A stretch of 64,000 nt of DNA from positions 930,001 to 994,000 of the forward strand of contig NZ_CP014232.1 in assembly GCF_001553935.1 (NCBI RefSeq). Reading direction: 5' to 3'. A model generated the notes under the pieces. That model saw only the letters and a program-made list of their open reading frames with translations. It did no database searches and was not told the DNA's origin. A program made the translations under genes and the position numbers. This document shows, piece by piece, positions 3,028 to 50,760 of this stretch; the first letter of the stretch is position 1; each line of letters begins with the position of its first letter. The stretch comes from Actinomyces oris (GTDB lineage: Bacteria > Actinomycetota > Actinomycetes > Actinomycetales > Actinomycetaceae).

Positions 3028-3190
3028 CCTGCGGCCGGGGACATTCCACGCGACCGGGTGCGCGCCATCCCGGCCGGGGACACCCCACGCGTCCGGGGAC
3101 AGGATTCCGGTCCCCGACGGCGTCGAACGCCCCCGACCGCACAGAAATGTCCCCGACGGCATCAAATGCCACCCGGGGAGAACGGTCCCC
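3028..3190. repeat. GGGGACA intergenic repeat, copy A
   Basis: Part of the 2821-3271 gap. The unit reads, in order: GCGGCCGGGGACATTCC, a second GGGGACA, GCGTCCGGGGACAGGATTCC, GGTCCCCGACGGCGTCGAAC, then GAAATGTCCCCGACGGC. The GGGGAC...GTCCCC core is an inverted repeat, and the outer GGGGACATT/AAATGTCCCC form another. Copies B-E lie at 4382, 5884, 7185 and 8573; F-H at 44953, 46138 and 50603. It ends about 80 bases before the next start codon. Confidence 0.85.
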
Positions 3191-3271
3191 ATGGGCGTGA
3201 GGCACCCGCCACCCCCAGACTTAACTCGCCAGCCACTACCGACCTGCCGACAGTTTTCAGGAGGGCACCCC

Positions 3272-4258
3272 ATGGCGATCTACCTCCGCACCTGCCCCAC
3301 TACGAAGACCAGGGTGCTCGGGTACCTGGGCGCCCTGGCCGCCGCCGGCATCGCACTCCTCTACCCGCTGATCCTGCTCATAACCGCCTTCGCCCTGGGC
3401 TCTCTGGACGAGGCCGTCGCCTACCCGGAGGACAACGAATCGATAGCCAATGCCGCAACTGCGGTAGGCGCGACACCACTCATTTTCAGCTTCGTGCTGA
3501 CGGCCATCATCTTCGGTGCGACCTCCTGCTTCACAGGTACCGACCGGTGGCTCGCCAAAGATGCGATGGTCACCCATCGCGATATCGCATCGGCACGGTT
3601 CCTTCATATCGCCCGGGACCCCAACAGCCGCGCCGTGGGCATGCTGTGGGCGATGCTCGCGGGCATGCTGGTGACGGCCTCCCCCTTCACCATGATGTCT
3701 ATCCCGCACTCCCTGATCTACAGCGATTCCACTCAAGATCTGGCCGTGGGGGCCACCTGGATTCTCGGACTGGCCCACATCGGGTTGTTCATGGCACTGA
3801 AACGCGCTGCCGCACACCGGCGGGCAAGCGCGGTACGCCTGAGAACGTACGGCATGGCGGTCGCGGACCCGAAGTCCTTCTCCCTCCCCCTACCTGCTGG
3901 GCGCAACAACTTCAGCATCCAGGAGGTCCCGGCGCGCTGGGGGCGCGTGAAAGTACAGGCCGTCTACGCCCCACCTACCGGAGGTGCCGAGTCGGGCAGA
4001 CCGGTCATCATCCCACGACTCAGTCTGACAGTGAGACCCTCACGGCTCGACGACGCCCGCTCCCGGGTCGAGGCCCGGCTCGACGAGATCTGGCGGGCCA
4101 CCCAGCTGGTGCGCACCCCACCCGAGCAGGAGGAGACAACCACCGCCCCGACGTCGGAGCATGAGCCGAATCCGACTCACCAGTCATCACCCGCACCACG
4201 GCACCACGATGCAGCCCCTGAGCACATCCAGTCCCAGGCAGGGAACCCCCTCCCATGA
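3272..4258 (+). CDS. 4-TM membrane protein, tandem paralog 1
   Basis: I do not recognise a named family. The 328-residue protein starts with MAIYLRTCPTTKTRVLGYLG, then a TM helix (about 16-38), a second near 65-90, a conserved cytoplasmic stretch (KDAMVTHRDIASARFLHIAR), two more TM helices (about 125-150 and 168-185), and a soluble C-terminal domain with FSIQEVPARWGRVKVQAVYAPP and a hydrophilic tail rich in Glu, Thr and Pro. ATG 3272 is chosen over the longer frame because CAGGAGGG precedes it and the two paralogs (6085, 7448) start at the same place with the same leader. Function unknown. Confidence 0.8.
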   Translation: MAIYLRTCPTTKTRVLGYLGALAAAGIALLYPLILLITAFALGSLDEAVAYPEDNESIANAATAVGATPLIFSFVLTAIIFGATSCFTGTDRWLAKDAMVTHRDIASARFLHIARDPNSRAVGMLWAMLAGMLVTASPFTMMSIPHSLIYSDSTQDLAVGATWILGLAHIGLFMALKRAAAHRRASAVRLRTYGMAVADPKSFSLPLPAGRNNFSIQEVPARWGRVKVQAVYAPPTGGAESGRPVIIPRLSLTVRPSRLDDARSRVEARLDEIWRATQLVRTPPEQEETTTAPTSEHEPNPTHQSSPAPRHHDAAPEHIQSQAGNPLP

Positions 4259-4381
4259 GTGGCGCATCCATCGCTTGATCCCACCGTCGACGCCCGACAC
4301 AGACACTGACCACGACCAGCCCCGACAGACAACACCCCTCCCACGAATGGCGCCTCCACCACCTCACCCAGCCCTGCACAG
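4259..4381. repeat. Conserved downstream segment of the paralog array
   Basis: This stretch (AGTGGCGCATCCATC, then CGACCACGACCAGCCCC-like sequence, then CACCCAGCCCTGCACAGTG) is nearly repeated at 7063-7184 and partly at 8420-8520. It marks the duplicated unit, which consists of gene, this spacer, GGGGACA repeat and leader. No ORF here is believable. Confidence 0.7.
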
Positions 4382-4551
4382 TGCGGCCGGGGACATTCCA
4401 CGCGGCCGGGTGCGCACCACTCCGGGCGGGGACAAGCTGCGCGTCCGGGGACAGGATTCCGGTCCCCGACGGCGTCGAACGCCCCCGACCGCGCAGAAAT
4501 GTCCCCGCCGGCGTCAAATGCCACCCTGGGTGAACCGTCCCCCACGGCAGT
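4382..4551. repeat. GGGGACA intergenic repeat, copy B
   Basis: Same order of elements as copy A, including CCGGGGACAGGATTCCGG and GTCCCCGACGGCGTCGAACG. It lies just before the Fic gene rather than before a paralog, so the Fic gene is flanked by repeat copies B and C. Confidence 0.85.
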
Positions 4552-4676: not shown

Positions 4677-5867
4677 ATGGACGTGAGCATGTTCGTTGAC
4701 GACACCATGGGGGAACTGGTCGACATCACCGGCTCCGACCCGGTGACCGGCAGCTGGCAGCACAAGGCCTTCATCCCCACCCCACTCGGCTCCGATGAGC
4801 CATCCATCAGCGGAGGCACCTACCGGATGGTGGCAGCAGCCGGGCGCGCACTGGCCGCCCTCGACGCCACGGCCCAGCAGCTGCCGAACCCCTACCTGCT
4901 GCGAACCCCCTCTCTACGGCGCGAGGCTCAGTCGACGTCGGCCCTGGAGGGCACATACGCCCCCCTTCGCGAGGTGCTCACCGCCGACGACGACGCCCCC
5001 GCGACCGCCGAGATGACAGAGATCCTCAACTACGTCCGCATGGCCAACAGCGGTTTCCTGTGGGCGCAGGAGGGGCGTCCTATCACCCTGTCGCTGATCG
5101 AGGATCTTCAAGGCGAGCTCATGCGGGGCACTCCCCTTGAGTCCGCTTCAGGTCGCCTGCGCGACACCCAGGTCATGATCGGCCGCCGCACCGGTGCGCA
5201 CAGCACGAACCCGATCCATGCGTCCCAGTTCGTTCCCGTACCGCCCGGGGATCCTCTTCGCGCCGGCATGCGAGCCCTCGTCGACTGGCTGCATCAGGAC
5301 CACACGGGAGACATCGACCCGGTCATCGCCGCAGGCATGGCCCACTACCAGTTCGAGACGCTTCACCCCTTCCGGGACGGCAACGGGCGCCTGGGGCGGT
5401 TCCTCGTCGTGCTCACTCTCCTGAGCTCGGGTGTTCTCAGCGAACCCACGCTGACGGTCTCGCCGTGGTTCGAGGAGCGTCGCGCCGAGTACTACGACGC
5501 GTTGCTGCGAGTCAGCACCCACGGCGACTGGGACACCTTCCTGGCCTTCTTCTCGCAGGGACTGGCCGCGGCGGCCACCAGCACACGTCATCAGATGCTC
5601 GCCCTGTCCGCGGCGCACCAGAGCCTCAAGGAGACGGTGCGCGCCTCCAGCCTGCGGTCCGCGCACGCTCTTGACCTTGTCGACTTCGCGGTCGCGAATC
5701 CGAGCTTCACGGTGCGTAAGGTTGAGGCGGCCCTCGGCATCTCGTACGGGCGAGCCAATGGCCTGGTTGCCCAGCTGACTGACATCGGGGTGCTCGACGT
5801 CGTCGAGACCGGCTCGCAGCCTCGCCGCTTCGCCGCCCCTGCCGTCCTGAAGGTCCTGCTCGCCTGA
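4677..5867 (+). CDS. Fic family protein (AMPylator), class II with wHTH tail
   Basis: Fic enzymes transfer AMP, or another nucleotide part, to target proteins. The active-site motif HPFRDGNGRLGR spans 230-241 and matches HxFx(D/E)GNGRxxR fully, so it looks catalytically intact. T87-S-A-L-E91-G92 matches the N-terminal inhibitory motif (S/T)xxxE(G/N), which holds class II Fic proteins off until relieved. The last ~80 residues (HALDLVDFAVANPSFTVRKV onward) resemble a winged helix with RANGLVAQLTDIGVLD, possibly DNA-binding. ATG 4677 is the only start near the upstream AT-rich stretch. A 7-bp inverted repeat TTGTGTG (4623) / CACACAA (4651) lies upstream and could be an operator. It interrupts an array of membrane-protein paralogs. 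Confidence 0.92.
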   Translation: MDVSMFVDDTMGELVDITGSDPVTGSWQHKAFIPTPLGSDEPSISGGTYRMVAAAGRALAALDATAQQLPNPYLLRTPSLRREAQSTSALEGTYAPLREVLTADDDAPATAEMTEILNYVRMANSGFLWAQEGRPITLSLIEDLQGELMRGTPLESASGRLRDTQVMIGRRTGAHSTNPIHASQFVPVPPGDPLRAGMRALVDWLHQDHTGDIDPVIAAGMAHYQFETLHPFRDGNGRLGRFLVVLTLLSSGVLSEPTLTVSPWFEERRAEYYDALLRVSTHGDWDTFLAFFSQGLAAAATSTRHQMLALSAAHQSLKETVRASSLRSAHALDLVDFAVANPSFTVRKVEAALGISYGRANGLVAQLTDIGVLDVVETGSQPRRFAAPAVLKVLLA

Positions 5868-5883: not shown

Positions 5884-6032
5884 TCTTGCGGCCGGGGACA
5901 TTCCACGCGGCCGGATGCACGCCGCCCCGGGCGGGGACACCTTGCGCGTCCGGGGACAGGATTGCTGTCCCCGACGGCGTCGAACGCCCCCGGCCGTCCA
6001 GAAACGTCCCCAACGGCGTCGAACGCCCCCAC
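5884..6032. repeat. GGGGACA intergenic repeat, copy C
   Basis: Follows the Fic stop by 17 bases. It has GCGGCCGGGGACATTCC, CGTCCGGGGACAGGATT, CTGTCCCCGACGGCGTCGAA, and a second ACGGCGTCGAACGCCCCC. Confidence 0.85.
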
Positions 6033-6084: not shown

Positions 6085-7062
6085 GTGGCGATCTACATCC
6101 GCACCCGCCCCACCACCAAGACCAAGGTACTCGGGGGCCTGTGTGCCCTGGCCACCATCGGGGCTATATGCCTCTACATACTCGCCGCGTTTCCGCTCGG
6201 CTCTTCCCTGACCTCTCTTGAGACGGCTATCGCCAACAACGATAGGGATCTGGAACTGCAGTCATTATTCGTCCTCATCGGCATCCCGACCGTCTTCGGC
6301 GTCGCACTGACCGGTTTCTACTTCGGGATGAACTCCTGCCTCAAAGGCACGGACCGGCGGCTGCCCAAGGACACGACAGCGATCCACCGCGATATCACGT
6401 CGGCACAGTTCCTCCATATCGCCCAGAGTCCAAGCAGGCGCACCATGGGCATGCTGCAGTGGACACTCGCAAGCATACTGCTAGCGACCTCCCCAGTTGA
6501 CGTACCATTCATCCCACTCCTCCTGACCCCCAACAATTCCACCCCGGAACTGGAGAAGAGCACCTTTTTGGGTGTGGCTGCCCTTGTCATGGTTCTAATC
6601 GTGGCATTGACATTGGCATGGGCTGGCACGCGCCGGCGGTTGGGTTCGGTGTGTATGACGCCACGGGGCATGGCGGTCGTCAAACCGTTTCCATCCGGCC
6701 TCCCCCTGCCTTCCAGCCGTAGCAACCTCAGCATCCAGGAGGTTCCAGCACTCTGGGGTCGCGTGACAGTCCGAGCCGTCTACGCCCCACCCGCCGGAAA
6801 CGCCGAGCAAAGGTGGCCAGTCATCATCCCGCGGCTCGGCCTGACGGTAAAGCCCTCGCGGCTCGACGACGCCCGCTCCCAGGTCGAGGCCCGGCTCGAC
6901 GAGGTCTGGCGGGCCGCCCAGCTGGTGCGCACCCCACCCGAGCAGGAGGAGACAACCACCGCCCCGACGTCGGAACCCGCACCAAATCCGACTCACCAGC
7001 CACCACATCAGGACGCGGACCCCGGTCACGACCAGCGTCAGGCAAAGACCTCTCTCCCATGA
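6085..7062 (+). CDS. 4-TM membrane protein, tandem paralog 2
   Basis: A 325-residue paralog of the 3272 gene, starting at GTG behind TTTTCAGGAGGG. The protein begins MAIYIRTRPTTKTKVLGGL. The central block KGTDRRLPKDTTAIHRDIT and SAQFLHIAQSPSRR are strongly conserved among the three copies, and the C-terminal domain (SIQEVPALWGRVTVRAVYAPP, then SRLDDARSQVEARLDEVW) is the most conserved part, while the TM segments differ more. That pattern suggests the cytoplasmic parts carry the function and the membrane parts diverge. Function unknown. Confidence 0.8.
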   Translation: MAIYIRTRPTTKTKVLGGLCALATIGAICLYILAAFPLGSSLTSLETAIANNDRDLELQSLFVLIGIPTVFGVALTGFYFGMNSCLKGTDRRLPKDTTAIHRDITSAQFLHIAQSPSRRTMGMLQWTLASILLATSPVDVPFIPLLLTPNNSTPELEKSTFLGVAALVMVLIVALTLAWAGTRRRLGSVCMTPRGMAVVKPFPSGLPLPSSRSNLSIQEVPALWGRVTVRAVYAPPAGNAEQRWPVIIPRLGLTVKPSRLDDARSQVEARLDEVWRAAQLVRTPPEQEETTTAPTSEPAPNPTHQPPHQDADPGHDQRQAKTSLP

Positions 7063-7184: not shown

Positions 7185-7369
7185 GTGCGGCCGGGGGCAT
7201 TCCACGCGGCCGGGTGCACGCTGCCCCGGGCGGGGACATCCTGCGCGTCCGGGGACAGGATTTCGGTCCCCGACGGCGTCGAACGCCCCCGGCCGGAAGG
7301 ACACGCCCCCGGCCGCGCAGAAATGCCCCCGACGGCGTCAAATGCCACCCGGGGAGAACGGTCCCCATG
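7185..7369. repeat. GGGGACA intergenic repeat, copy D
   Basis: Same element, slightly longer because an extra block GGCCGGAAGGACACGCCCCC is inserted before the GAAATG(C)CCCC end. It occupies the 7063-7447 gap with the conserved spacer before it and the leader after it. Confidence 0.8.
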
Positions 7370-7447: not shown

Positions 7448-8419
7448 ATGGAGATCTACATCCGTTCACACCCGACCACTAAATCTAAGGCGCTCGGGAG
7501 CCTGTGTGCTCTCACTACCGTCGGTATGATATTCCTCTACCCGGCCGCCCTGCTCCTGACCCCCTCCATCCCGAACCCTCTGACCGAACTCGTCGCCAAC
7601 GAAAACGGGAATCTGGAGTTGCAGTCCTTATCCGTTCTGATCGGCGTCATGACCGTCTACAATTTCATACTGTTCGCCACGATCTTCGGTGCACTCTCCG
7701 GATTCAGGGGCACGGACCAGCGCTTACCCAAGGACTCGACGGTCACCCATCGCGATATCGCATCGGCACGGTTCCTTCACATCTCCCAGAGCCCAAGCAG
7801 GCGCGTCGTGGGCATGCTGTTGGCGGTGCTTGCGGTCATGCTGGCCGAGGTATACCCAGCTATCGCAATAACCATCCCACACCTCCTGATCCCCGACGAT
7901 TCAACCCCAGCGCTGGAGCAGGCTGCCGTCATAGGCACGGTCTGCCTTACCATCGGACTGTTTGCGGCATTGGTGTCGGCCTCCTCGCGTCGGGAGAAGA
8001 TCGCGGTGTGCCTGACGCCGCAGTGCATGGCGGTTGTCAAATCATTTCCTCTCTTCCTCCCCCTGCCTTCCGGCCGCAACGACCTCAGCATCCAGGAGGT
8101 CCCGGCATACTGGGGTCGCGTGAAGGTCCAAGCCGTCTATGCCCCACCCACCGGCGCCGCCCAGCCGGCCAGACCAGTTCTCCTCTCGCAGCTCGGCCTG
8201 ACGGTGAAGTCCTCACAGCTCAACGACGCCCGTTCCCGGGTCGAGGCCCGGATCGACGACGTCTGGCGGGCCGCACAGCTGATACGAGCCTCAGTCGAGC
8301 AGGAAGAGACGGCCGACGCCCCGACATCGGAGGCTGAGACGAATCCGACTCACCAACCACCACATCACGACACGGACCCCGGTCACGAGCAGTCCCAGAC
8401 AGGGACCCCTCTCCCATGA
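7448..8419 (+). CDS. 4-TM membrane protein, tandem paralog 3
   Basis: A 323-residue third paralog starting at ATG 7448 (MEIYIRSHPTTKSKALGSL), behind TTCTCAGGAAGGCACCCC. It has the same four predicted TM helices, the KGSTVTHRD-type cytoplasmic block (here RLPKDSTVTHRDIASARFLH, close to paralog 1), and the SIQEVPAYWGRVKVQAVYAP C-terminal domain with a Glu/Thr/His-rich tail. Gene conversion with paralog 1 is suggested by near-identical DNA at 7741-7780 and 3568-3607. Function unknown. Confidence 0.8.
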   Translation: MEIYIRSHPTTKSKALGSLCALTTVGMIFLYPAALLLTPSIPNPLTELVANENGNLELQSLSVLIGVMTVYNFILFATIFGALSGFRGTDQRLPKDSTVTHRDIASARFLHISQSPSRRVVGMLLAVLAVMLAEVYPAIAITIPHLLIPDDSTPALEQAAVIGTVCLTIGLFAALVSASSRREKIAVCLTPQCMAVVKSFPLFLPLPSGRNDLSIQEVPAYWGRVKVQAVYAPPTGAAQPARPVLLSQLGLTVKSSQLNDARSRVEARIDDVWRAAQLIRASVEQEETADAPTSEAETNPTHQPPHHDTDPGHEQSQTGTPLP

Positions 8420-8572: not shown

Positions 8573-8720
8573 TTGCGGCCAGGGACATTCCGCGCGGCCG
8601 GGTGCGCGCCGCTCCGGACGGGGACACCCGGCGCGTCCGGGGACAGGATTCCGGTCCCCGACCGCGTCGAACACCCCCGACCACAACGAAATGTCCCCGA
8701 CGGCGTCGAAGGCCCCCAGT
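8573..8720. repeat. GGGGACA intergenic repeat, copy E
   Basis: Lies within the 8420-8987 gap, beginning TTGCGGCCAGGGACATTCC and holding CCGGGGACAGGATTCCGG and CCCCGACGGCGTCGAAGG. The rest of the gap (8721-8987) holds no convincing gene; a 6-bp-arm hairpin GTGAAG/CTTCAC lies at 8865-8882. Confidence 0.8.
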
Positions 8721-8987
8721 CGGGACGAGCAGCCCCCACGAGAGGGTGATATCCGCCGCCCCTGAGACGCCTGCCTCCGCATCACAGGCCCCTGCCCCTC
8801 GCGCGGCAACGGCAGTTGTCCCGACATCATCGCTTTCCATTATTCGGTAGACGCACACTCCGACGTGAAGGAGTTTCTTCACTACACTTTTCGACGACAT
8901 CCCAGGGCGGTTGAACGCAACCGCACATGCGCTCCGATCCCCCACGGCCAGCACCTGCGCACCTTCATAAAAAAAGAGAGATACGAC

Positions 8988-9788
8988 ATGGGCGATAGCA
9001 ATCCTCTTCAGTCACTTCGGGCGCCGATCACGGTAGTCCTCAGTATTTTTATCGTATTCGCCGTCACCAACTTACATGAGGCTGACGCCGACCCCAATAG
9101 GACAAACTTTAAGTTCTATGTTTTCTCCATCATTTTCTGGGCGCTATGCATCAGCGTCGCAGCCTGGAAATCTCCACAAGCTCAAGCAGCCTCAAGCATG
9201 ACATTTACATTGACGGCTTTCCTAGCAACTAAACTGCAATCAGAACTCGCTTTAACGGCCTTCGAAGCAAGACGGATGCAACGAGAATCTGGATTTACTC
9301 CCGACATCGAGTACGGCGATTTCGGTTCGATCGGACCAACATTGTGGACTCTTTCTAGGATTATGTGCGGGGCAACATTTGCCACCGCTTGGACCTTATC
9401 CCATCACGCCGATCGAACCCCAGACGAGATCGACAGCATCTTCCACCTCGATAGAATCATCGGCGCCACACTGGCCTGCATCTTCCCACTCATAGGGATA
9501 ATAGCTTCTAGCTCCTACTACTCAGGCGCCCACACAATCAATGCGGGAACTGTGATATTAATGTTCCTCTCGGGCTTCTCCCTGACTGCGCTCGCAGTCA
9601 TCTCACCCATAGGCCCAGCCGCCTTCCTGGCAATCACACTGACATGGATTCACATCACACACAGCTCGGAGCAAAATCGAGATGTCAGCGTTGAAGTAAT
9701 CTCTTTCCCGCTGATCGCGATAGCGGCTACCGTCGGCCTCTTCACCATGTACAGCCTCAGAAATCCATGGTCACGCAAGTCGAGCTGA
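8988..9788 (+). CDS. Multi-TM membrane protein, second paralog family, member 1
   Basis: Unrecognised 266-residue hydrophobic protein. It begins MGDSNPLQSLRAPITVVLS and has several predicted TM helices (about 15-32, 45-60, 110-130, 165-185, 190-212, 245-258), with the motif WKSPQAQAASSMTFTLTAFL after the second. The same layout occurs at 9895 (YNSPQAQGATSAVFTVAALV) and 12006 (WNHPPSLATSGAMLLTVSIL). ATG 8988 is preferred over GTG 8865 because it matches the paralogs' N-termini. Its base composition is visibly less GC-rich than the flanking genes. Confidence 0.7.
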   Translation: MGDSNPLQSLRAPITVVLSIFIVFAVTNLHEADADPNRTNFKFYVFSIIFWALCISVAAWKSPQAQAASSMTFTLTAFLATKLQSELALTAFEARRMQRESGFTPDIEYGDFGSIGPTLWTLSRIMCGATFATAWTLSHHADRTPDEIDSIFHLDRIIGATLACIFPLIGIIASSSYYSGAHTINAGTVILMFLSGFSLTALAVISPIGPAAFLAITLTWIHITHSSEQNRDVSVEVISFPLIAIAATVGLFTMYSLRNPWSRKSS

Positions 9789-9894
9789 GTCGCAGATCCT
9801 CACACTCGCCAGGCCATAAGGGCGCGGCGAGCAGTGAGGAATCTTTCAGACAGCACGCCAACCTCTCAAACTCTAGGAAGAGCAGCATCGCCAC

Positions 9895-10698
9895 ATGAAT
9901 GAGATCCAACCGTTCCGGCCACTGCAGGCGCCGGTCGCAGTTGCGCTCAGCGCCTTCGCCATCATCGCACTCACGGAACTGCATAGCCTCGACCCCGACT
10001 CCACATCATTTTCAATCGACTCATTCAACGCATTGTCCGCCGTTGTTTTCTGGATAGTCTCCGCAGGGGTGGTCACCTACAATTCCCCGCAAGCACAAGG
10101 GGCGACAAGCGCAGTATTCACTGTCGCCGCCCTCGTGGGTGAGATCATGCCAGCAGACAGTGAACATAGACGGAGCACCCTCTCGGAGATCTCTCCCATC
10201 CTGTGGATCCTGGCTGGAATCATGTGCGGATCGGCCGCGGCAACATGCACCACCATCAGCCGCACGAGCAAGCATCACTCAACTCTCAGCATCACGGACC
10301 AGCTCCTTGGGAGAATCGCGGTCGCAGTACTTGCCAGCCTCCTGGCGTCCGCACCACTCGTGAGCACCTCACCCTCTCGCTTATGGGCGACACCCGGACA
10401 GACCAGCATGTCTATTATCACATTCCTCTGCGGTTTCGCAATGACCTCGCTTGCCGGCATGGTGCCCTTCATCTCGTGGATCTATCTGGCTATCACCCTC
10501 GGCCGCTACTACACCTTCGACAACGCAGAGGCGGCGGGTACCTACCTGGCCGACATTCTCCCCATCCCACTTCTCGCCATCTCCGCCACAGCCGGGCTGC
10601 TCACCATGTACCACTACAAGAAGCCACGACCGATCACGTCGAGCCAAGCCACAGGCTCTCAGATCTCCCCACAGGGAAAGGACACCCATGAAGAATGA
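9895..10698 (+). CDS. Multi-TM membrane protein, second paralog family, member 2
   Basis: A 267-residue paralog of the 8988 gene, starting MNEIQPFRPLQAPVAVALS. It shares the SPQAQ motif after TM2, ISPILWILAGIMCGSAAAT (compare IGPTLWTLSRIMCGATFAT), and a final helix PLLAISATAGLLTMYHYKK (compare PLIAIAATVGLFTMYSLRN). The stop overlaps the start of the mini-ORF at 10688. Function unknown. Confidence 0.72.
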   Translation: MNEIQPFRPLQAPVAVALSAFAIIALTELHSLDPDSTSFSIDSFNALSAVVFWIVSAGVVTYNSPQAQGATSAVFTVAALVGEIMPADSEHRRSTLSEISPILWILAGIMCGSAAATCTTISRTSKHHSTLSITDQLLGRIAVAVLASLLASAPLVSTSPSRLWATPGQTSMSIITFLCGFAMTSLAGMVPFISWIYLAITLGRYYTFDNAEAAGTYLADILPIPLLAISATAGLLTMYHYKKPRPITSSQATGSQISPQGKDTHEE

Positions 10699-10807
10699 CA
10701 TCTCTTTTCAGCATCTACGCACCACACATGAAGCCGAGGATTCCGCCACCGGGGCCGACAACGCCGGCGTCGACGGCCCGGGCCGCGCAAAAATGCCCCA
10801 CCGGTGA
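10688..10807 (+). pseudogene. Internally deleted member of the second membrane-protein family
   Basis: A 39-residue ORF whose ATG overlaps the upstream stop, with GGAAAGG before it. Its first 11 residues (MKNDISFQHLR) match the family N-terminus (compare MKSNESLQQVR at 12006), and the following HEAEDSATG matches the C-terminus of the 12006 protein (HEAEESDTS). The DNA at 10728-10760 is also close to 12701-12735. All TM segments are missing, so an internal deletion joined the two ends. The last residues come from a GGGGACA-repeat fragment. Whether it is translated is unknown. Confidence 0.6.
10752..10802. repeat. GGGGACA repeat, fragment
   Basis: GGCGTCGACGGCCCGGGCCG followed by CGCAAAAATGCCCCACCG corresponds to the 3' half of the repeat (GGCGTCGAACGCCCCCGACC, then GCAGAAATGTCCCCGACG). 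It ends the deleted mini-gene. Confidence 0.5.
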
Positions 10808-15686: not shown

Positions 15687-15754
15687 CACACTTCGACAGA
15701 ATCTTCAAAATCGACCCGGAGCCGCGTCGTTTCTGAAGTTTTGGTCGAAGTGTG
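15687..15754. repeat. Palindromic repeat family, copy 1 (inverted orientation)
   Basis: A 68-base near-perfect palindrome: CACACTTCGACAGAATCTTC at the left and its complement GAAGTTTTGGTCGAAGTGTG at the right, with loop CCGGAGCCGCG. The loop is the reverse complement of the loop in copies 2 and 3 (CGCGGCTCCGG), so this copy lies the other way round. It sits between recR and lysC. Confidence 0.75.
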
Positions 15755-15787
15755 CCGGGCCTGGCCCTCCCGCCCTGACCGGGGCGG

Positions 15788-20792: not shown

Positions 20793-20815
20793 CCCTCCGC
20801 CGCCCGGGCACGTGA

Positions 20816-20902
20816 GGACCCCTCGCGCACCCGCCAGAGCCTGCTTACCCTTGCTACCTTCCGGTCCTGGGGGATTCGCTGGATGACGCCGCACGAGGGG
20901 CC
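20816..20902 (-). ncRNA. ffs: Signal recognition particle RNA (4.5S type)
   Basis: On the minus strand the universal SRP loop reads CAGGACCGGAAGGTAGCAAG, followed by GGTAAGCAGG. The ends pair (GGCCCCTCGTGCGGCGT with GCGGGTGCGCGAGGGGTCC), giving one long hairpin of about 87 nt with no Alu domain, as in most actinobacteria. It lies between carbonic anhydrase and tRNA-Ser. End positions are judged from the pairing. Confidence 0.93.
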
Positions 20903-21052
20903 GAGCGAGAGACTACCCGATCCGGCCCCCGGTTGCGAACCGTCCCGACCGGCTTTGCGTGACAGATCCCACCGCCCCGGGCTGGCCCCGGGGATGGACG
21001 GTCCGATATATTCCTTTCTCGTTGCACGTGGCTGTCGCCGCGTGGAGCGCCT

Positions 21053-21140
21053 GGAGGATTCGCCTAGTGGCCTATGGCGCACGCTTGGAAAGCGTGTTGG
21101 GTGCAAGCCCTCGGGGGTTCGAATCCCCCATCCTCCGCCA
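21053..21140 (+). tRNA. tRNA-Ser (anticodon GGA), CCA encoded
   Basis: The acceptor stem GGAGGAT pairs with ATCCTCC; GGTTCGAATCC is the T-loop, the anticodon loop is CTTGGAAAG, and a long variable arm (TTGGGTGCAAGCCCTC) marks a class II tRNA. CCA is encoded at 21138-21140. Confidence 0.97.
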
Positions 21141-23587: not shown

Positions 23588-24714
23588 TCAGAAGGTCTCG
23601 TAGCGCCCAGAGCTGAGGAAGACGCCGTGACCGGTCTCGGTGTTGCGGCAGGTCATGCCGGTCTCCTCGGAGCTGCACACCCAGGCACCGAAGGTGACGG
23701 ACTGGCCGTACTCCACCACCTGGGGCGAGGAGCCGCCACCGCGGAAGGCCTCGTCGAGCGAGAAGGCGCCCTCGCTACGGCCGGCGAGCTGCGGAGTCCC
23801 ACCGGAGCTGAGGTCGAACCACCACTTGGGCGAGCCCGCCTCATCCTTGCCGTAGGTGCCGTTGGAGCGGTAGGACAGCACGCCACAGCCTGCGTGGTGG
23901 GCCGACAGGTCACAGCCGATGTTGCCCGACGGCGACACAATCATGGCGGTCTTCTCCGAGACGAGGTTGTCCGGGACGAAGGACGTGGCCTGGCCGGGCT
24001 GCTCGTCAGCGGGGGCAGCCGGCTCAGCGGGCGCCTGGGCATCGGCGGGCTTGTCTGCCGGCTTGTCAGCCTGGGCGTCAGCGGGCTTGTCAGCCCCCTT
24101 GTCGGCCTGCTTGTCAGCAGGCTTGTCGGCCTGGGCATCAGCGGGCTTGTCTGCCGGCTTGTCGGCCTGGGTGTCGGCCGGCTTCTTGGCCTGCTTCTCA
24201 GCCTGCGTCTGATCCGAGGGCTTCTGCTGAGCCTCAGGGGTCGCGGACCGCGGCGCCTGAGTGGCTCCGGCGTAGTTCTTGCCGCCGTCGTCGGCCTTCC
24301 CCTGACTCTGGGGGCCTTGGAGGCACCACCGTTCTGCCGGCCCGGAGCGTCCGTATTGCCGGAGGCCAACGCCTTGGGGGCGCCGTTTCCGCTGGCGGCG
24401 GGACGAGGCTCACTGGCCCGCGGGCTGGCGGGACGGGACTGGGAGCCGGAGGGCTGCGACGCGGAGGAGTCGGCGGGACCCTTACCGGTGGGACTGGGAA
24501 TGCGAGGAGAGGCGTGCCCCGACTTCTGGCCGGAGGTCGCCTTGGCACTGGCCGTCGACTGCGCCTTCGCAGATGACGATGAACCCGTGGTGCCCTGCTG
24601 ATTGGCATTGGAGGCACCACCGGACTGACAACCGGCCAGAAGCATGGCGGTCGAGGTGAGAACGACAAGGGACAGGGGAATGGTGAAGCCGCTTCGGCGG
24701 ACCGCGATGGTCAT
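23588..24714 (-). pseudogene. Frameshifted lipoprotein with SPSGNI/Cys C-terminal domain
   Basis: The first part (24714 down to about 24315) has a signal peptide with lipobox LLAGC and a Ser/Ala/Pro/Gly linker ending GRQNGGASKAP. There the frame slips: in the wrong frame it becomes an Arg/Pro run and stops at 23941, while the next frame continues as KADDGGKNYAGATQAPRS, a repeated (A)DKPAD array (24200-24030), then TAMIVSPSGNIGCDLSAH, CRNTETGHGVFLSSGRYETF and a stop at 23588. The C-terminal domain has six cysteines and matches the actinobacterial exported 'SPSGNI...C' type (possibly DUF6636). One extra base in the G5 tract at 24310-24314 would restore it, so slippage, a recent mutation or an assembly error are all possible. 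Confidence 0.75.
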
Positions 24715-25102
24715 GGCTGCGGCATCCTTTCGGTCGAGGTCGGTGCAGCGAACACGGTACTAGAGCCCGGAAGACGAGGGGAACAGTCTGAAGGTCAGGC
24801 ATCCCGCCGATTTCCGGCATCAGACATCCCACCTTCCCAGTAAACCACCAGATATCACAGCGATAACGCCAATCACGGAGAGATGACGGAATCACCGTCC
24901 TGTTGGTTACATTCCAACTAGTGAGACAGATAACGGAAGGGTCTCCCCATTCCCGAGGGCCTGGACAGGGCGACCTCAGCAGTCCGGCACCCCGGCGGAG
25001 TCGGCACCGTCGACGCCGTCGACGCTGATCGATACCGTCGATGTTGGACGACCCGCGGCTCCCCCACGCACTTGTGGCCGCTTCATTCACTAGGATGTTG
25101 CC
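24715..25102. other. Intergenic region between divergent genes
   Basis: I see no gene here. GAAAGGAT before the lipoprotein start on the minus strand is its likely ribosome-binding site. Otherwise there are only short repeats of the CGTCGA type at 25005-25045. Confidence 0.5.
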
Positions 25103-28084: not shown

Positions 28085-28172
28085 GAGTGATCTCCTGCCT
28101 AAGCAACGAGGGGATTGACTGTGTCCCGTGGGGGAATCCCCTCGCGGGAGATCCGCGGGACGCTTGGCAGGA

Positions 28173-28191: not shown

Positions 28192-28358
28192 ACTTCAGCA
28201 TAGCCCCTGCTCGGGAGGTGCGCGGACCGGGCTTCTCACAGGCACCGACGGGCACCGCGGGCACCGGAGGGGGCTCTTCGCGGACATCTGCCGGGCAGCG
28301 CCCAATTCGTCCGCGGGAAGGATGTCAGCGGCAGGTGCCGACAGTGCATGATGTGGGC

Positions 28359-28742: not shown

Positions 28743-28788
28743 AGGCCACACGGCCACACCAGGCCAGCCGGTCCCCTACAGTGGTCCC

Positions 28789-29526
28789 GTGAAGCCTTTC
28801 ATCATGGTGACCACGCGCCCCGAGCACGAGGCGGCGCAGGACGAGTACGAGTCCTTCCTGGCTCAGAGTGGCCTGTCGCGCGAGGACCTGCAGCACATCG
28901 CCCTGGAGGAGGTCGATTTCCTCGACTCCTTCACCGCAGCCGATGTCTCCGGGGTGCTCATCGGGGCCAGCCCCTACAACGCGGACACGCCGGCAGCCGA
29001 GAAGACCCGCAGTCAGCTCAACGTCGAGGAGCAGATCCGCGAGCTGCTCGGGGTGATCCTCAAGGAGGGCATCCCCCTTCTGGCCACCGGCGTCGCGCTC
29101 CAAGTCCTGGCTGCCTACCTCGGCACCGAGACGCATGAGGAGTTCGGTGAGGAACTGGGCGCCGTCGACCTGTTCCTGACGGCGGAGGGCCGCGAGGACC
29201 CGGTCCTGGAGGGACTCCCCCAGGTGGTCACGGTCTTCGCCGGCCACTACGAGGGCGTTGGGGAGGTGCCTGCGCATGCGACCCTACTGGCGAGCTCACC
29301 GGACTGCCCGGTCCAGATGCTGCGCGTGGGCAGGAACGTCTACGCCTGCCAGTTCAACCCCGAGCTCGACGCCCTCCGGTTCGAGCGCCGCGTCAGCATC
29401 TACGACGAGGCCGGTTACGGTGACCCGGACATGAGCGAGGACATCCTCACCCAGGCCCGCTCCTCCGAGGCGCACGACGCCGGACAGATCATCCGCAACT
29501 TCATCTCGCACTTCACCCGCAGCTGA
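28789..29526 (+). CDS. Class I glutamine-amidotransferase-like protein without catalytic residues
   Basis: A 245-residue paralog of the gene at 33933-34667 (both begin MKPF, then ATRxxxE, and have GxSPxNA(D/S)TP, VFQAFVAHKE/VFAGHYEG and QF(H/N)PELD). In the active paralog the nucleophile elbow reads PFFGACYGVGTLA; here the same place reads PLLATGVALQVLA, so the Cys becomes Gly at position 101. The catalytic His of QFHPE becomes Asn (N190). It therefore cannot hydrolyse glutamine by the known mechanism and may act as a binding or regulatory partner. The start is GTG 28789. Confidence 0.8.
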   Translation: MKPFIMVTTRPEHEAAQDEYESFLAQSGLSREDLQHIALEEVDFLDSFTAADVSGVLIGASPYNADTPAAEKTRSQLNVEEQIRELLGVILKEGIPLLATGVALQVLAAYLGTETHEEFGEELGAVDLFLTAEGREDPVLEGLPQVVTVFAGHYEGVGEVPAHATLLASSPDCPVQMLRVGRNVYACQFNPELDALRFERRVSIYDEAGYGDPDMSEDILTQARSSEAHDAGQIIRNFISHFTRS

Positions 29527-29616
29527 GCTGCCGCTCCGTGGGGCCGCACGCCCCGAACGACTCAGGGGCCCAGGCGCTGCCCTGGAGCTGAGGGCCACGA
29601 CCATCAGGACGTTGTC

Positions 29617-31056
29617 ATGACTTACCCGCCCGCCTATCCGCCGCCACAGGGATACAGCGGCCCACCGAGCCCGCAGTACCCGCCGCAGGCCGCCTATGGT
29701 TCTCCCCCGGTGAGCGCCCCACAGGGAGGGGCGACCTACGGGCAGCCGCCGACGCCGGCCGGTCACGGCGCGTACATGCCCCCTGCCCAGAGCGCGATTC
29801 CGACACAGTCGGTGATGCGCCCTCCCGGGGCTCCCACTTTCCCGGGTCAGCCCTATCCGCCTCCGTCCGTGCAGGCCTCCGCGCCGCAGTACCAGCCGTA
29901 CCAGTCGCATCAGCAGCAGTTCCAGCAGTTCCAACACGGCGCGGGCTCAGGCGCCGGTTCCGCGTACCTGAGCGGAGCGGTCACCGCACCGGGCTACGCC
30001 GCCTCCGCCAGACCGCCACAGGCGGCCGGCCTGCGCCCAGGAGCGGCCTCATCCCAGGCCTCGGGCGCACTGCAGCACGTGCCGTGGCGCGGTTTGAAAG
30101 CGGCGGCACTGGTCATGATGATCGTTGGCTGCGCCCTTGAGGTCGTCGTCTATGTCACCTACTTCCTCAGTTTGATGCGGGGCAACATATGGGTGTCAGG
30201 TGTCATCATCACGCTCTTATTCGTCGCCACGACACCAGTGATCTGGTGGCACTATTTTGGATTGCGCCACCTATTCCACGACCAGCCAGTCACTGAAATG
30301 TTGGGGCTCTCGCTGTGGTTCGGTTACGGGGTGCTCATGACACCTATTAGCAACACCGACGAGGCTCCATATGCAGGCGTGCAGAATGTCACCGAGATCC
30401 TCCTATTCATCGCCACCACAGTCGGCGCTATCCTCACTATACGCCTCAATCGACGCTTAAGGAATCCGCAGCCATGGCCGATCACTCTGGCCGTGGGTGC
30501 CTGTCATTTCGCGCTCATCAACAGCGCCGCACGCTTGTCACACTTTGGCCTCTTGATCTACTTACACCTATCGACGGGTAAGAGACTCGATCGGCTCACG
30601 ACCAACGCCTGGTTCATACTATCAGATTCAGGTGGAATGGGCCTCCCCTTAGTGCCAGGACTATTTATTCTCGCTATTATCACTTCACTGGCAGTCGCAG
30701 GCCTGTTCCTGGGAGTGAGGCGCCCTTCCAGCACATCCTTCCGAATCGTGTCGACAAGTGCCGTCTCACTTTTGACGCTATATAACATCATCATCGTCCT
30801 CGCCTACGGTTTACCCACGAACGGTGAGTTCACCTACCAACCGTCCAGCACAGGAATCGCGATAGCGATCGTCATCGCTCACGGGGCCTTCCTCATCGGT
30901 TCAACATTGGCGGCCGGACACAAATCTGCAGCCGCTCCTCCCGGTGGCCGCCAGCAGCACCACTATGGCGTCGTGAGCACAGCAGGCCCCCACGGCATGC
31001 AGAACCGCTTCAGCCGGCAGCATCGCTCCCAGTCGCAGTGGGGGAGCGGGCACTGA
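29617..31056 (+). CDS. Membrane protein with Pro/Gln/Tyr-rich N-terminal tail, paralog A
   Basis: A 479-residue protein. Residues 1-150 are a low-complexity Pro/Gly/Tyr/Gln-rich tail, presumably cytoplasmic, ending HVPWRGLKAAALVMM. Eight or so TM helices follow, interrupted by a loop with NTDEAPYAGVQN. The helices' coding DNA is clearly less GC-rich than the tail's. It is similar in layout to the gene at 31130 (WGRDRLAALVLTLLAVGVHV at the tail-helix junction). No family is recognised. Confidence 0.72.
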   Translation: MTYPPAYPPPQGYSGPPSPQYPPQAAYGSPPVSAPQGGATYGQPPTPAGHGAYMPPAQSAIPTQSVMRPPGAPTFPGQPYPPPSVQASAPQYQPYQSHQQQFQQFQHGAGSGAGSAYLSGAVTAPGYAASARPPQAAGLRPGAASSQASGALQHVPWRGLKAAALVMMIVGCALEVVVYVTYFLSLMRGNIWVSGVIITLLFVATTPVIWWHYFGLRHLFHDQPVTEMLGLSLWFGYGVLMTPISNTDEAPYAGVQNVTEILLFIATTVGAILTIRLNRRLRNPQPWPITLAVGACHFALINSAARLSHFGLLIYLHLSTGKRLDRLTTNAWFILSDSGGMGLPLVPGLFILAIITSLAVAGLFLGVRRPSSTSFRIVSTSAVSLLTLYNIIIVLAYGLPTNGEFTYQPSSTGIAIAIVIAHGAFLIGSTLAAGHKSAAAPPGGRQQHHYGVVSTAGPHGMQNRFSRQHRSQSQWGSGH

Positions 31057-32703: not shown

Positions 32704-33006
32704 ATGCGTACTCGCAAGATCGTGTCAGCCGCCCTGATCGTTGCCGCCCTCGCCGTCGGCACCGCCGCCTGCGGCTCCATGAATGCCGACAAGGACAAGA
32801 TGGAGCAGACCTCCACCCCGAACGGCACCATGAGCGACGGCAAGATGTCCGATGGAAAGATGAGCGACGGAAAGACCGAGGACGGGAAGATGTCGGATAA
32901 CAAGATGTCCGACAGCCCCACCTCCGGCAGCATGTCGGACGGCAAGATGAGCGACGACAAGATGTCGGCCGCCCCCTCGGCCAGCGCTATGAGCGACGGC
33001 AAGTAG
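32704..33006 (+). CDS. Small lipoprotein with MSDGK repeats
   Basis: A 100-residue lipoprotein with a signal peptide ending in lipobox GTAAC. The mature part is almost entirely a repeat of (K)MSDGK, varied as KMSDNK, KMSDSP and KMSDDK: nine or so units of five residues. AAGGAG before ATG 32704 is a good ribosome-binding site. The repeat's charge pattern (Lys, Asp, Met) is unlike most known domains. It could act as a surface spacer or bind metal. Function unknown. Confidence 0.8.
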   Translation: MRTRKIVSAALIVAALAVGTAACGSMNADKDKMEQTSTPNGTMSDGKMSDGKMSDGKTEDGKMSDNKMSDSPTSGSMSDGKMSDDKMSAAPSASAMSDGK

Positions 33007-35556: not shown

Positions 35557-35691
35557 GGATTCTCCTCGAGTGCGCCCGGGGCGGGCGGTGGGACAGGGAA
35601 CGACGACCGACGTGGGACGCCGGTCAGGGTGGAGCGAAGTCTACGCGAAGACGCCGACCGCCGCCGACCTGGGGCCCCATCCCTCACTCAC

Positions 35692-35745
35692 CGACAAAAT
35701 CTTCAGAATCGACGCGGCTCCGGGTCGATTCTGAAGTTTCGGTCG
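35692..35745. repeat. Palindromic repeat family, copy 2
   Basis: CGACAAAATCTTCAGAATCG and its near-complement CGATTCTGAAGTTTCGGTCG enclose the loop CGCGGCTCCGGG. It lies between the convergent ends... of the PNP-like gene's promoter side and the 35816 membrane gene's stop, in the 35557-35815 gap. Confidence 0.75.
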
Positions 35746-35815
35746 AAGTGTGTGCGGGGCGGCGGGCCGGGCAGGGCGGGCCGAGCGGCGGCAGGCTCGG
35801 ACACACCTCCACGAT

Positions 35816-37035: not shown

Positions 37036-37086
37036 GTGCTTCACTCGAAGAGTCCGGGCCGCCAGCACCCACCTCAGACGAACTCT

Positions 37087-37142
37087 TCGACAGAATCTTC
37101 AGAATCGACGCGGCTCCGGGTCGATTCTGAAGATTCTGTCGA
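37087..37142. repeat. Palindromic repeat family, copy 3 (perfect)
   Basis: A perfect 23-base stem: it starts TCGACAGAATCTTCAGAATC (37087) and ends with its exact complement (ending 37142), around the loop GCGGCTCCGG. It lies between divergent promoters in the 36942-37292 gap. Confidence 0.85.
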
Positions 37143-37245
37143 TCTGAGTGCGGGCCAGGCCGGCGCGCCGCGTGCGTGCGGGCTGGCAGGCCGGCACACC
37201 GAGCACGTGCGGGCTGAGCGGCGCACCACCTTCACGCAAACGTTA

Positions 37246-44952: not shown

Positions 44953-45100
44953 ACGCCGACGGGGACATCCTGCACGCCCGGGGACTTTTCCTCACAGCCG
45001 GGGGCATCCAGCGCGTGCGGGGACGGGATTCCTGTCCCCGACGGCGTCGAAGGTCCCCGGCCGGAGTAGACCGCACCCGGCCGCGTCGAATGTCCCCGCC
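44953..45100. repeat. GGGGACA intergenic repeat, copy F
   Basis: ACGGGGACATCCTGCACGCC, GGGGACGGGATTCCTGTCCC, CGACGGCGTCGAAGGTCCCC and GTCGAATGTCCCCGCCGG: same order as copies A-E though more diverged. It lies after the BCCT gene. Confidence 0.75.
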
Positions 45101-45145: not shown

Positions 45146-46009
45146 TCAGTCCGCCTCGACCGTGTAGGAGGCGAGACGCTCCTGGAAGGCGGGGTCGTAG
45201 TGGTTGACGACGCCCTGCCCCTCGTCGAGGGCGGCGATGGCCCGCATGTCGGCGTCGTCGAGCTGGAAGTCGGTGACGTCGAGGTTGGTGACCATGCGCT
45301 CGCGGTGGACCGTCTTGGGGATGACGATGATGTCGAGCTGGATGAGGTAGCGCAGGGCCACCTGGGCGGCGGTCTTGCCGTGCTTCTCGCCGACAGAGGT
45401 GAGCACCGGGTGGGTGAAGATGTTGTTGCGGCCCTGGGCAAGCGGCCCCCAGGACTCCAGGGCGGTGTCGTACTTGGTGTACCAGGCGCGGTTGTCGGCC
45501 TGCTGGTTGAAGACGTGGGTCTCCATCTGGTTGACGGCCGGCGGCACCTCGACGTGCTGCGCCAGGTCCACGAACCGGTCGGGGAAGAAGTTGGAGACGC
45601 CGATGGCGCGGACCTTGCCTGCGGCCAGGGCCTTCTCCATGGCGCGGTAGGTGCCGTAGTAGTCGCCGAAGGGCTGGTGGACGAGCAGCAGGTCGATGTA
45701 GTCGGCGCCCAGGCGGCGCAGGGAGCCGTCGATGGAGCGGGCGGCGCGCTCCTCCCCGGCGTTGGAGATCCACACCTTAGTAGTCAGGAAGATGTCCTCG
45801 CGGGGCAGTCCACTGGCGGCGACGGCCGCGCCCACGCCCTCCTCGTTGCGGTAGGCCTGGGCGGTGTCGATGTGGCGGTAGCCGACCTCGAAGGCCTCGA
45901 GCACGGCGCGCTCGGTCTCCTCCGGCGGGGTCAGGAAGACGCCGTAGCCGATCTGCGGGATGTCGACGCCATTGTTCAGAGTGATGGTGGGGGAGGAGCC
46001 GTTGGCCAT
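45146..46009 (-). CDS. Aldo/keto reductase
   Basis: A 287-residue NADPH-dependent carbonyl reductase. The catalytic tetrad is D48 and Y53 (HIDTAQAYRNEEGVG), K78 (TTKVW) and H111 (LLLVHQPF). KVRAIGVSNFFPDRF is the second AKR signature and IVIPKTVHRERMVTNL the cofactor loop. Substrate unknown; the 2,5-diketo-gluconate-reductase-like group is nearest. GAAGGAGAA precedes ATG 46009. Confidence 0.92.
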   Translation of the reverse strand: MANGSSPTITLNNGVDIPQIGYGVFLTPPEETERAVLEAFEVGYRHIDTAQAYRNEEGVGAAVAASGLPREDIFLTTKVWISNAGEERAARSIDGSLRRLGADYIDLLLVHQPFGDYYGTYRAMEKALAAGKVRAIGVSNFFPDRFVDLAQHVEVPPAVNQMETHVFNQQADNRAWYTKYDTALESWGPLAQGRNNIFTHPVLTSVGEKHGKTAAQVALRYLIQLDIIVIPKTVHRERMVTNLDVTDFQLDDADMRAIAALDEGQGVVNHYDPAFQERLASYTVEAD

Positions 46010-46137: not shown

Positions 46138-46284
46138 CCGACGGGGACATCCTGCGCGGCCGGTGACTTTTCCTTCCAGCCGGGGGCATCTCACGCGTGC
46201 GGGGACCGGACTCCTGTCCCCGGCGGCGTCGAATGCCCCCGCCCGGTGCGGACTGCACCCAGCCGCGCGGAATGTCCCCGACCG
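46138..46284. repeat. GGGGACA intergenic repeat, copy G
   Basis: ACGGGGACATCCTGCGCGGC, GCGGGGACCGGACTCCTGTC, CCCGGCGGCGTCGAATGCCC and GGAATGTCCCCGACC. It resembles copy F most and flanks the aldo/keto reductase gene on the other side. Confidence 0.75.
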
Positions 46285-49474: not shown

Positions 49475-49604
49475 GGCGGTGCCGCAGCGGCACTGATGCG
49501 GCGCTTCCAGTGACGTTCCGTGTGGCCGGGCACGGTCTACTCCAGCCTGGGATGCCTCGCGCGCAGAGTGAGTGGCTTCCCGTCCCTGACGGCGTCGAAC
49601 GCCC

Positions 49605-50423
49605 TCACTCTCGCAGCTCCACGCCGGCCCTGGTCAGGAGACTCCGTACCCAAGTGATGGAGTAGCCCGATTGAGTCGAGATCTGCTGAACTGACGCTCC
49701 CTTCGCGTACTCATCAGCCAGGATCCGGGCGACACGATCCGAGAGCCAGTCGCTCATCTGCTCGTTGAGCTCCAAGTCCGGCAGAGGATCGATATTGCCG
49801 CCGGCGTATCCCCGCTGAGCCTTCCCCTGCGGCGTGATCTCTTCATCCGACTCATTGCCCCACACGGACCAGCCCGGTCGCGCGTAGCGGGCGAACATCT
49901 CCAGGTACGGACCCGGCGAGCAGGACTCAATGAGGTCATACTGCTCGTCGGGCTTGCGGCTGTGCTCACGCTTGCGCGTCTCGATCATATTGACCGTTGA
50001 GCGCCCCGGCGCCAGCGTTCTCATCGAGCCTTTGACACCGAACAGGATCGGCTCCGTGACATTGCGGAAGTAGAAGCCGACACCGCGGCCGTCTGGCCCA
50101 CCGTCTTTGCGGCGCTTGGCCCAGATGATATTCGAGACGTAGCGGAATCCCCACGCCTGCATGACCTCCAGGCCCTCCGGAAGCAAGGCGTTGGGAACCC
50201 ACAGGTACAGGTGGGCGTTCGCTGCGGTCACATCACCGACCGGGAGCTCCTTGATCTCCTCGAGAGACATCGTCCCGTACCTGCCCAGACGACGGTGCTC
50301 GGGAGCGACCTTGCCGGTTCGATTGGTGAACCGCCACGGAGGGTCGGCCAGAACGGTCTGGAATCCTCCTTCCACTGTAGGAAGTGGAGCGATTTCCGCA
50401 GAGGATCCCAGAGCCTTGGACAC
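49605..50423 (-). CDS. MT-A70-family adenine methyltransferase
   Basis: A 272-residue N6-adenine methyltransferase of the MT-A70 type. The catalytic DPPW is at 27-30, followed by RFTNRTGKVAPEHRRLGRYG; YLWVPNALLPEGLEVMQAWG and EMFARYARPGWSVWGNESDE are family blocks. The C-terminal ~60 residues may be a small HTH (ASVQQISTQSGYSITWVRSL) for target recognition. The GTG at 50423 has its ribosome-binding site too close (AAGGA directly before), so the true start is uncertain. It lies divergent from hsdM and shares the island. Confidence 0.85.
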   Translation of the reverse strand: MSKALGSSAEIAPLPTVEGGFQTVLADPPWRFTNRTGKVAPEHRRLGRYGTMSLEEIKELPVGDVTAANAHLYLWVPNALLPEGLEVMQAWGFRYVSNIIWAKRRKDGGPDGRGVGFYFRNVTEPILFGVKGSMRTLAPGRSTVNMIETRKREHSRKPDEQYDLIESCSPGPYLEMFARYARPGWSVWGNESDEEITPQGKAQRGYAGGNIDPLPDLELNEQMSDWLSDRVARILADEYAKGASVQQISTQSGYSITWVRSLLTRAGVELRE

Positions 50424-50602
50424 TCCTTAGATGTACCAGAAATAGATCTGGTTTGTCACCCATGGGTCTTTTATGCAGATGGGTACCGCTCGCGTCCCAC
50501 ATCTTCCAGCCGGACTCCCGACCGTTCCGTGCTGGGGGCCGGCGGGACTGGCGCGGATCGCGCGCTACCGCGGCGGTCTCAGACGACCGTGTCTTCGACG
50601 CC

Positions 50603-50760
50603 GACGGGGACATTCCGCGTGGCCGGGTGCGATCTGCTCCAGACGGGGACAGTCCGCGCGTTCGGGGACCGGATTCCCGTCCCCGACGGCGTCGAAGGTC
50701 CCCGGCCGCGCAGGATGTCCCCACCCGCGCAGGATGTCCCCGGACGCGCGGCGTACGCCT
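50603..50760. repeat. GGGGACA intergenic repeat, copy H
   Basis: GACGGGGACATTCCGCGTGG, GACGGGGACAGTCCGCGC, GTTCGGGGACCGGATTCCCG, TCCCCGACGGCGTCGAAGGT, then two GCGCAGGATGTCCCC units. It occupies part of the 50424-51071 gap; a perfect hairpin CCGCACCT-C-AGGTGCGG lies at 50891-50907. Confidence 0.75.

Follow-up and report, generated by a model that had tools for sequence, protein, structure and literature searches.

Direct copies of an eight-module intergenic palindrome border exchangeable gene blocks in Actinomyces

The described systems found to come nearest to the repeat reported here combine intergenic inverted repeats with changes in gene content. In Neisseria, NIME, which are built of dRS3 and RS repeats, form intergenic arrays with inverted-repeat units of ~20 bp, dRS3 itself following the 20 bp pattern ATTCCC(N8)GGGAAT; identical repeats are proposed there as the site of insertion or deletion of the pilC1 gene, and MME are described as strain-varying whole-gene cassettes that lie between two conserved genes and are acquired by homologous recombination (PMC3898611). 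ERIC is an intergenic palindromic repeat with one long stem-loop, present in tens to hundreds of copies in a restricted bacterial group (PMC10969869, PMC2267715), and miniature inverted-repeat transposable elements (MITEs) are called hotspots for homologous recombination (PMC10969869). Here we describe an intergenic repeat, referred to below as the element, found in a 64,000-nucleotide stretch of the Actinomyces oris chromosome (contig NZ_CP014232.1 of assembly GCF_001553935.1). This stretch, the window, corresponds to positions 930001-994000 of the source genome, a single contig of 3.04 Mb. The element constitutes a real and new family, direct copies of which border exchangeable gene blocks, and these copies probably provide the homology through which the blocks are lost, gained, duplicated and moved.

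An intergenic repeat family of the genus Actinomyces

The element is an imperfect palindrome of 145 columns composed of eight modules of ~19.5 bp, four forward and four reverse (a 4+4 dyad). When 109 copies from the source genome and its relatives were stacked, L051, L052 and L058 being excluded as duplicates of G170, G100 and G156, 101 of them aligned over the 145 columns without any gap and eight were out of register. The forward modules (CGGGGACAT type) occupy columns 4-12, 23-31, 43-51 and 62-70, and the reverse modules (ATGTCCCCG type) columns 76-84, 95-103, 115-123 and 134-142, with a period of 19 to 20 bases and a conserved GCGC-type word between several modules; conservation is lowest in the outermost right one (0.74 bits per column). 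Many copies have inverted-repeat ends, CGGGGACATTCC... on the left and ...GGAATGTCCCCG on the right, and copies start with GGCC (15/54), CGAC (10/54) or other words. On each side, the second module is of the GGGGAC or the GGGTGC type and copies tend to hold one of each: with 28 of the 101 copies unclassified, 40 + 20 were mixed and 7 + 6 alike (Fisher p 3e-7, or p 0.017 when one copy per source-genome cluster was retained, n=30).

The eight copies listed for the window in the initial annotation are all present, align over the whole length of a 133-column core and carry their motifs in the order it had given. The length of 150-185 bases that it ascribed to them slightly exceeds the full core of 145 columns; extra ~20 bp modules are carried by some copies, including that at 7185. 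The first of its two fragments, at 49580, is a genuine match that turned out to be a nearly full, diverged copy, whereas the second, at 10752, could be recognized only through a partial element at the corresponding place of another genome (Table 1). The motif GGGGACA occurs 38 times in the window versus 15.3 expected, a number reached in 0/100 shuffles; 27 of these occurrences fall inside the eight copies and the remaining 11 outside them, so enrichment is confined to the arrays and the motif is not a chance word of similar density throughout the DNA. No Rfam or RAYT family fits the element.

At least 54 copies were found genome-wide with an iterated nhmmer profile, counted as matches above 50 bits within stretches picked from genome-wide blastn and pattern searches; the rest of the genome was covered by these genome-wide searches, by a sequence-only model (74 matches) and by 20 control stretches. 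With copy 1 as the query, blastn returned 64 matches, the two strands of one palindromic place being counted separately, and the core pattern gave 69 forward matches versus 17 for the reversed control. The intergenic location noted in the window holds for most copies genome-wide: according to a simple purpose-made gene caller, which missed some A+T-richer genes, 52 of the 54 copies overlap a called gene by at most 30 bp and two overlap by more than 30 bp. Gene 3' ends are favoured (28/61 neighbouring 3' ends lie within 60 bp of a copy versus 7/47 5' ends), and gaps between divergent genes hold 8/54 copies versus 25/106 of background gaps.

In the wider search that had been proposed, the family was found only in the genus Actinomyces. 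Using a strict core (≤1 mismatch), matches were found in 12 of 200 Actinomycetaceae genomes, all 12 among the 37 Actinomyces, and in 0/163 genomes outside this genus. With strict filters and no more than 68 scored candidates per genome, the sequence-only model, built on 38 copies, matched 15 of 49 Actinomyces genomes and left 34 without a match; both strands of one place possibly being counted, the matches numbered 74 in the source genome, 78 in G168, 75 in G112, 74 in G100, 71 in G166, 54 in G170, 47 in G154, 45 in G160 and G204, 43 in G156, 37 in G138, 26 in G162, 7 in G083 and 4 in G131 and G201. Spread by phage or plasmid was rejected, as 50,697 phage records contained no element match, IMG/VR contigs contained 0 exact pattern matches, and the only matching record of the plasmid collection is apparently chromosomal. 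This record (NZ_CP116225.1, 1-50000), listed for A. oris WVU627 as the 415-kb 'plasmid unnamed1', carries groL, cysS, rlmB and clpB together with elements and resembles a chromosomal segment.

Gene blocks between direct copies

The source genome was compared with genome G100 over 636 kb and insertions or deletions (indels) of at least 600 bp were scored. Four of the 45 indels had both edges within 70 bp of elements versus 0.18 expected, and 0/1500 random placements in intergenic gaps reached four; within 30 bp, three indels were found versus 0.13 expected. These four indels lie near 976, 980, 1011 and 1233 kb of the source genome. In all of them, G100 carries a pair of elements in direct repeat around extra genes and the source genome carries a single element; in two of the four, the 141-142 bases by which the flanking alignments overlap are the element itself.

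Comparison with a third genome, G112, shows that blocks at element sites have been both acquired and lost, or else relocated. In G100, a block of three genes, a sensor kinase, a symporter of the Na/sulfate-citrate type and a glycerate kinase, is present between two elements beside hsdM, where the source genome and G112 have a single element. G112 carries this block (4,765 bp, 96.0% DNA identity) at another site, starting 3 bases past the element there, between two genes that in the source genome and G100 adjoin a single element. The last gene of the block is followed in G112 by ~6 kb of DNA (C7, reversed, about 23,930-30,000) with two open reading frames (ORFs) devoid of a Pfam match; beyond it, the original right flank resumes, preceded by the rear portion of an element. 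Near 1011 kb, a one-gene block missing from the source genome has an element on either side in both G100 and G112. Near 848/849 kb, a unit made of a gene and an element is doubled in the source genome and single in G100. Tandem copies of the element itself also occur: at C1 210457 and 210649, G100 has two near-consensus elements 192 bp apart, and the source genome has one.

The locus of the Fic gene in the window was compared in nine genomes. Units consisting of a gene and an element vary in number and order between conserved borders, trxA on the left in 9/9 genomes and an ion-channel gene on the right in 8/9 (another conserved gene in L057), so that whole-gene cassettes vary between two conserved genes as described for MME. 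For example, a regulator-malic enzyme pair precedes the Fic gene in L053 and follows it in L054 and L057. Elements also tend to stand close together in the source genome: 22 pairs of adjacent copies are less than 1.8 kb apart versus 4.2 expected (maximum 12 in 2000 simulations), and 18 of the 22 have the same orientation. Furthermore, in 7 of 14 pairs (with 1 tie) a source copy was closer to another source copy than to its orthologue in G100, the flanks of orthologous copies being mostly 86-98% alike. Finally, the point at which a source element ceases to resemble the left G100 copy and begins to resemble the right one was near the left end of the element in some events and near or beyond its right end in others. 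Such variation would favour homologous recombination over a fixed crossover site and be compatible with the mode of acquisition described for MME.

Combined, these sequence comparisons show blocks bounded by direct copies, sites that are filled in one genome and single in another, one block at two different element sites, a varying gene order at the Fic locus, and neighbouring copies that are often more alike than orthologous ones. We propose that copies in direct orientation act as short, portable homology. The recombining copies would either share a chromosome or belong one to the chromosome and the other to incoming DNA, and the intervening block, usually one to a few genes, would be deleted, duplicated, inserted or relocated. 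We infer that the exchange is ordinary homologous recombination of the RecA type and that the DNA enters by gene transfer.

Several observations weigh against this explanation or limit its reach. Only 4 of the 45 indels are bounded by elements. Indels near elements overall numbered 7 versus 12.3 expected in randomly chosen intergenic gaps, an expectation raised by the independent placement of elements in both genomes, and indels with at least one edge at an element numbered 5 versus 6.3 expected. The element is therefore rejected as a general indel hotspot, and the suggestion of a recombination hotspot made in the initial annotation survives in the restricted sense of direct copies that bound exchanged blocks, with the four doubly bordered indels and the moved block in its favour. 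In the 976 kb event, ~320 bp following the first element of G100 are likewise similar to the source genome's right flank, so one simple crossover within the element does not account for it. The right border of the moved block in G112 is interrupted by the ~6 kb stretch. The switch-point data are noisy, and one crossover site shared by every event is possible. Copies are often just 70-90% alike over 145 bp, which makes them a short and imperfect substrate for RecA. Lastly, 34 of 35 resolvable source copies are also present in G100, indicating that turnover is slow.

If exchange through direct copies is the right explanation, a group of Actinomyces, oral species included, has built-in borders for swapping single genes and short operons, by which Fic proteins, restriction enzymes, two-component systems and metabolic enzymes would be exchanged between fixed sites without integrase, transposase or phage. 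Simple dispersed homology could then yield an integron-like modular gene content. The reciprocal filled and single sites render the mechanism testable.

The elements of the window and their neighbours are listed in Table 1. The gene context initially described, an array of paralogues with a Fic gene, an aldo/keto reductase and hsdM, was recovered in full, the only match of the paralogues being to DUF6338 below the cut-off. The Fic protein is 94-96% identical to Fic in four A. oris records, among the matches listed. Genome-wide, three genes adjacent to elements, each at a locus of its own (window 4677, L031:6923 and L044:2778), encode Fic proteins, and a McrBC component and a Schlafen AlbA_2 protein also adjoin elements in the source genome. 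Within the Fic locus, two genes of unusual composition at 8865-10698, mostly missed by the gene caller and without a Pfam match, are possibly recent arrivals. Elsewhere in the window, coding sequence contains short tandem repeats, with units of 12 and 15 bases, at 23997-24206 and 32823-33003; also present are a small signal recognition particle RNA at 20811-20905 on the minus strand, and a tRNA at 21053-21137.

Table 1. Elements and associated genes in the window (window coordinates; G100 is the genome used for comparison).
Feature	Position	Strand	Remarks
Element copy 1	3033..3165	+	133-column core, outermost right module ~12 bases beyond; between trxA-side flank and paralogue 1
Gene block, membrane-type paralogue 1	3272..4258	+	No Pfam or NCBIfam match
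Element copy 2	4385..4517	+	133-column core
Gene block, Fic/DOC protein	4677..5867	+	Fic_N and Fic domains
Element copy 3	5890..6022	+	23 bases past Fic stop codon
Gene block, paralogue 2	6085..7062	+	DUF6338 match below cut-off
Element copy 4	7189..7321	+	One extra ~20-bp module
Gene block, paralogue 3	7448..8419	+	Between copies 4 and 5
Element copy 5	8577..8709	+	133-column core
Decayed element remnant (initially listed as a fragment)	10752..10805	+	No match at E<=1e-3; G100 counterpart partial, 29 bits
Element copy 6	44957..45089	+	133-column core
Gene block, aldo/keto reductase	45146..46009	-	Between copies 6 and 7
Element copy 7	46139..46271	+	G100 site: two direct copies around ~5.5 kb, five called genes
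G100 genes at the copy 7 site			FtsX-type permease, ABC ATPase, small ORF, histidine kinase, response regulator
Diverged element copy 9	49505..49637	+	57.9 bits; matched part 49508-49614
MT-A70 family methyltransferase	49605..50375	-	Between copies 9 and 8
Element copy 8	50602..50733	+	Upstream of hsdM; G100 site: two direct copies around the 4.77-kb three-gene block
hsdM	51072..52631	+	Right neighbour of copy 8

Alternative explanations

The element may be a MITE-like, non-autonomous transposon with terminal inverted repeats, whose past transposase has been lost or is unrecognised and for which recombination between copies is a by-product; we regard this as possible but rather unlikely. A non-autonomous element had been suggested for the window copies, and the inverted-repeat ends, the high copy number, the intergenic location near stop codons and the presence in only part of one genus agree with it. 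Against it, among 44 source copies tested against G100, 34 were shared, 9 unresolved and 1 lay in a replaced stretch; conversely, among 46 G100 copies, 32 were shared, 11 unresolved, 2 belonged to a tandem element copy and 1 was a fragment. No solo insertion was therefore seen between these two genomes, the exceptions being replacements, the tandem copy and the fragment. Empty sites with target duplications were sought at 344489 and 917447 and over the 636 kb, and none was clean; nor was any target duplication seen in those site comparisons. The Y1 (RAYT) transposase PF01797 was found in 0/49 Actinomyces genomes versus 5/14 control genomes, the search for mobilising enzymes covering the Y1 and integron integrase families, and membership in the RAYT/REP group is rejected on this ground. 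A MITE-like origin is compatible with exchange through homology, and both can hold together.

We consider it unlikely that an unrecognised recombinase or DNA-binding protein reads the module array and moves the blocks in an integron-like manner, without classical attC sites or IntI. The cassette-like units, their direct orientation and the reciprocal filled and single sites would suit such a system, as would the fixed, indel-free length of 101 of the 109 copies, the regular modules and arms that avoid identity. However, the integron integrase IntI (TIGR02249) was above the curated cut-off in 0/49 Actinomyces genomes; matches below the cut-off, present in 49/49 Actinomyces and 14/14 control genomes, are expected of Xer-type enzymes. 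The core sites RYYYAAC and GTTRRRY were present in 0/54 copies, so that no attC-like core pair exists among them, no transposase, integrase or other recombinase was encoded among the 29 neighbouring proteins scanned, and the switch points vary between events. Integron or CALIN membership is rejected for the absence of IntI above the cut-off and of attC cores. In an equally improbable extension, an integron-free dispersed cassette system, the eight-module palindrome would be the specific site of a putative exchange-promoting protein, the inequality of the arms would set direction or protect the palindrome, and confinement near the origin would be part of the system.

No greater probability is given to a structured RNA, a terminator or an mRNA-stability element working at gene ends. 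On one strand, copy 1 forms a fold far more stable than those of shuffled sequence (z -4.46, versus -1.82 on the other), the two halves of the palindrome are in register (pairing in 70.6% of cells versus 38-49% when slid), and the preference for 3' ends with few copies in divergent gaps fits a role at gene ends. However, in a covariation alignment (A4) of 38 of the 54 copies, all five measures were under those of all 500 shuffles. Two-sided changes affected 21 cells versus 69.4 in shuffles, 500/500 shuffles being at least as high, and Watson-Crick pairing across 101 copies was about at the level of independent columns, or less. This speaks against a conserved RNA hairpin, as does the empty Rfam search, and eight copies do lie between divergent genes. 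Regulatory RNA, which had been put forward for the window copies, is thereby rejected as the main explanation. The palindrome therefore reflects conservation of the modules themselves and not of their pairing, and there seems to be avoidance of arms that match. The likely cause is the instability of long perfect palindromes in bacteria, and the strong deficit of matched two-arm changes constitutes an unusual, measurable constraint on the palindrome.

The element is very unlikely to be a binding array for a chromosome-organising protein kept near the origin, analogous to SlmA, Noc or parS sites: the bias in position that suggests it is not special to the element, 34 of 49 Actinomyces genomes have no match, and no candidate protein is known. 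With dnaA as the marker of the origin, GC skew being too weak as a guide, the origin-proximal half holds 49/54 copies in the source genome, 19/21 in G204 and 36/39 in G166 (the genome lengths of the latter two being rounded); 0/20000 random cluster placements were as close to the origin and the 20 control stretches of 20 kb gave 0 matches. Conservation of the modules as sequence would also suit binding by a protein. However, an unrelated intergenic inverted-repeat family shows the same bias, with 18 of its 19 genome places in the origin-proximal half (p 0.004 by clusters). The bias thus probably belongs to the chromosome rather than to the element, which weakens any origin-proximal function. 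This second family, of ~73-86 bp and the CTTCGACAGAATCTTC...GAAGATTCTGTCGAAG type, is present in the window at 15688-15760, 35686-35758 and 37082-37154. The crowding of two unrelated repeat families near the origin lends itself to testing in further genomes.

Relation to known repeat systems

CALIN are clusters of attC sites without an integrase. Like attC sites and CALIN, the elements are imperfect palindromes separating units of one or a few genes whose number and order vary between strains; in contrast to them, they are dispersed in small groups, and the order of blocks does not depend on one platform. REP and BIME sequences are likewise intergenic palindromes, some of them paired and often near gene 3' ends, but the element has 145 columns compared to the short REP units and is associated with no Y1 transposase, and the GTAG/GGAG head of the REP type was not found in the 54 copies.

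MITEs share with the element a small size, inverted-repeat ends and an intergenic location; the element differs in that no target duplication, clean empty site or partner transposase was found, the transposase searches covering Y1 and integron integrases. ERIC is also a long intergenic imperfect palindrome in many copies. The element differs from it in its modular 4+4 organization and in bordering exchanged genes, and it matches the ERIC primer sequences, the only part of ERIC compared, no better than shuffled sequence does (13/22 bases). In the open-access literature on palindromic, intergenic or miniature repeats of Actinomyces, as far as accessible text extends (PMC3672468 included), the family is not described.

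Among the systems found, the nearest analogues are NIME/MME, followed by ERIC and MITEs, and none agrees with the element in sequence or in all defining features. Compared to NIME, the element is a fixed eight-module dyad of 145 columns and not a variable mosaic, has ~54 copies versus ~700 and belongs to another phylum; its modules are of the CGGGGACAT / ATGTCCCCG types and do not follow the dRS3 pattern. The likeness to NIME and MME lies in the arrangement: in Actinomyces too, intergenic arrays with inverted units of ~20 bp border exchanged genes.

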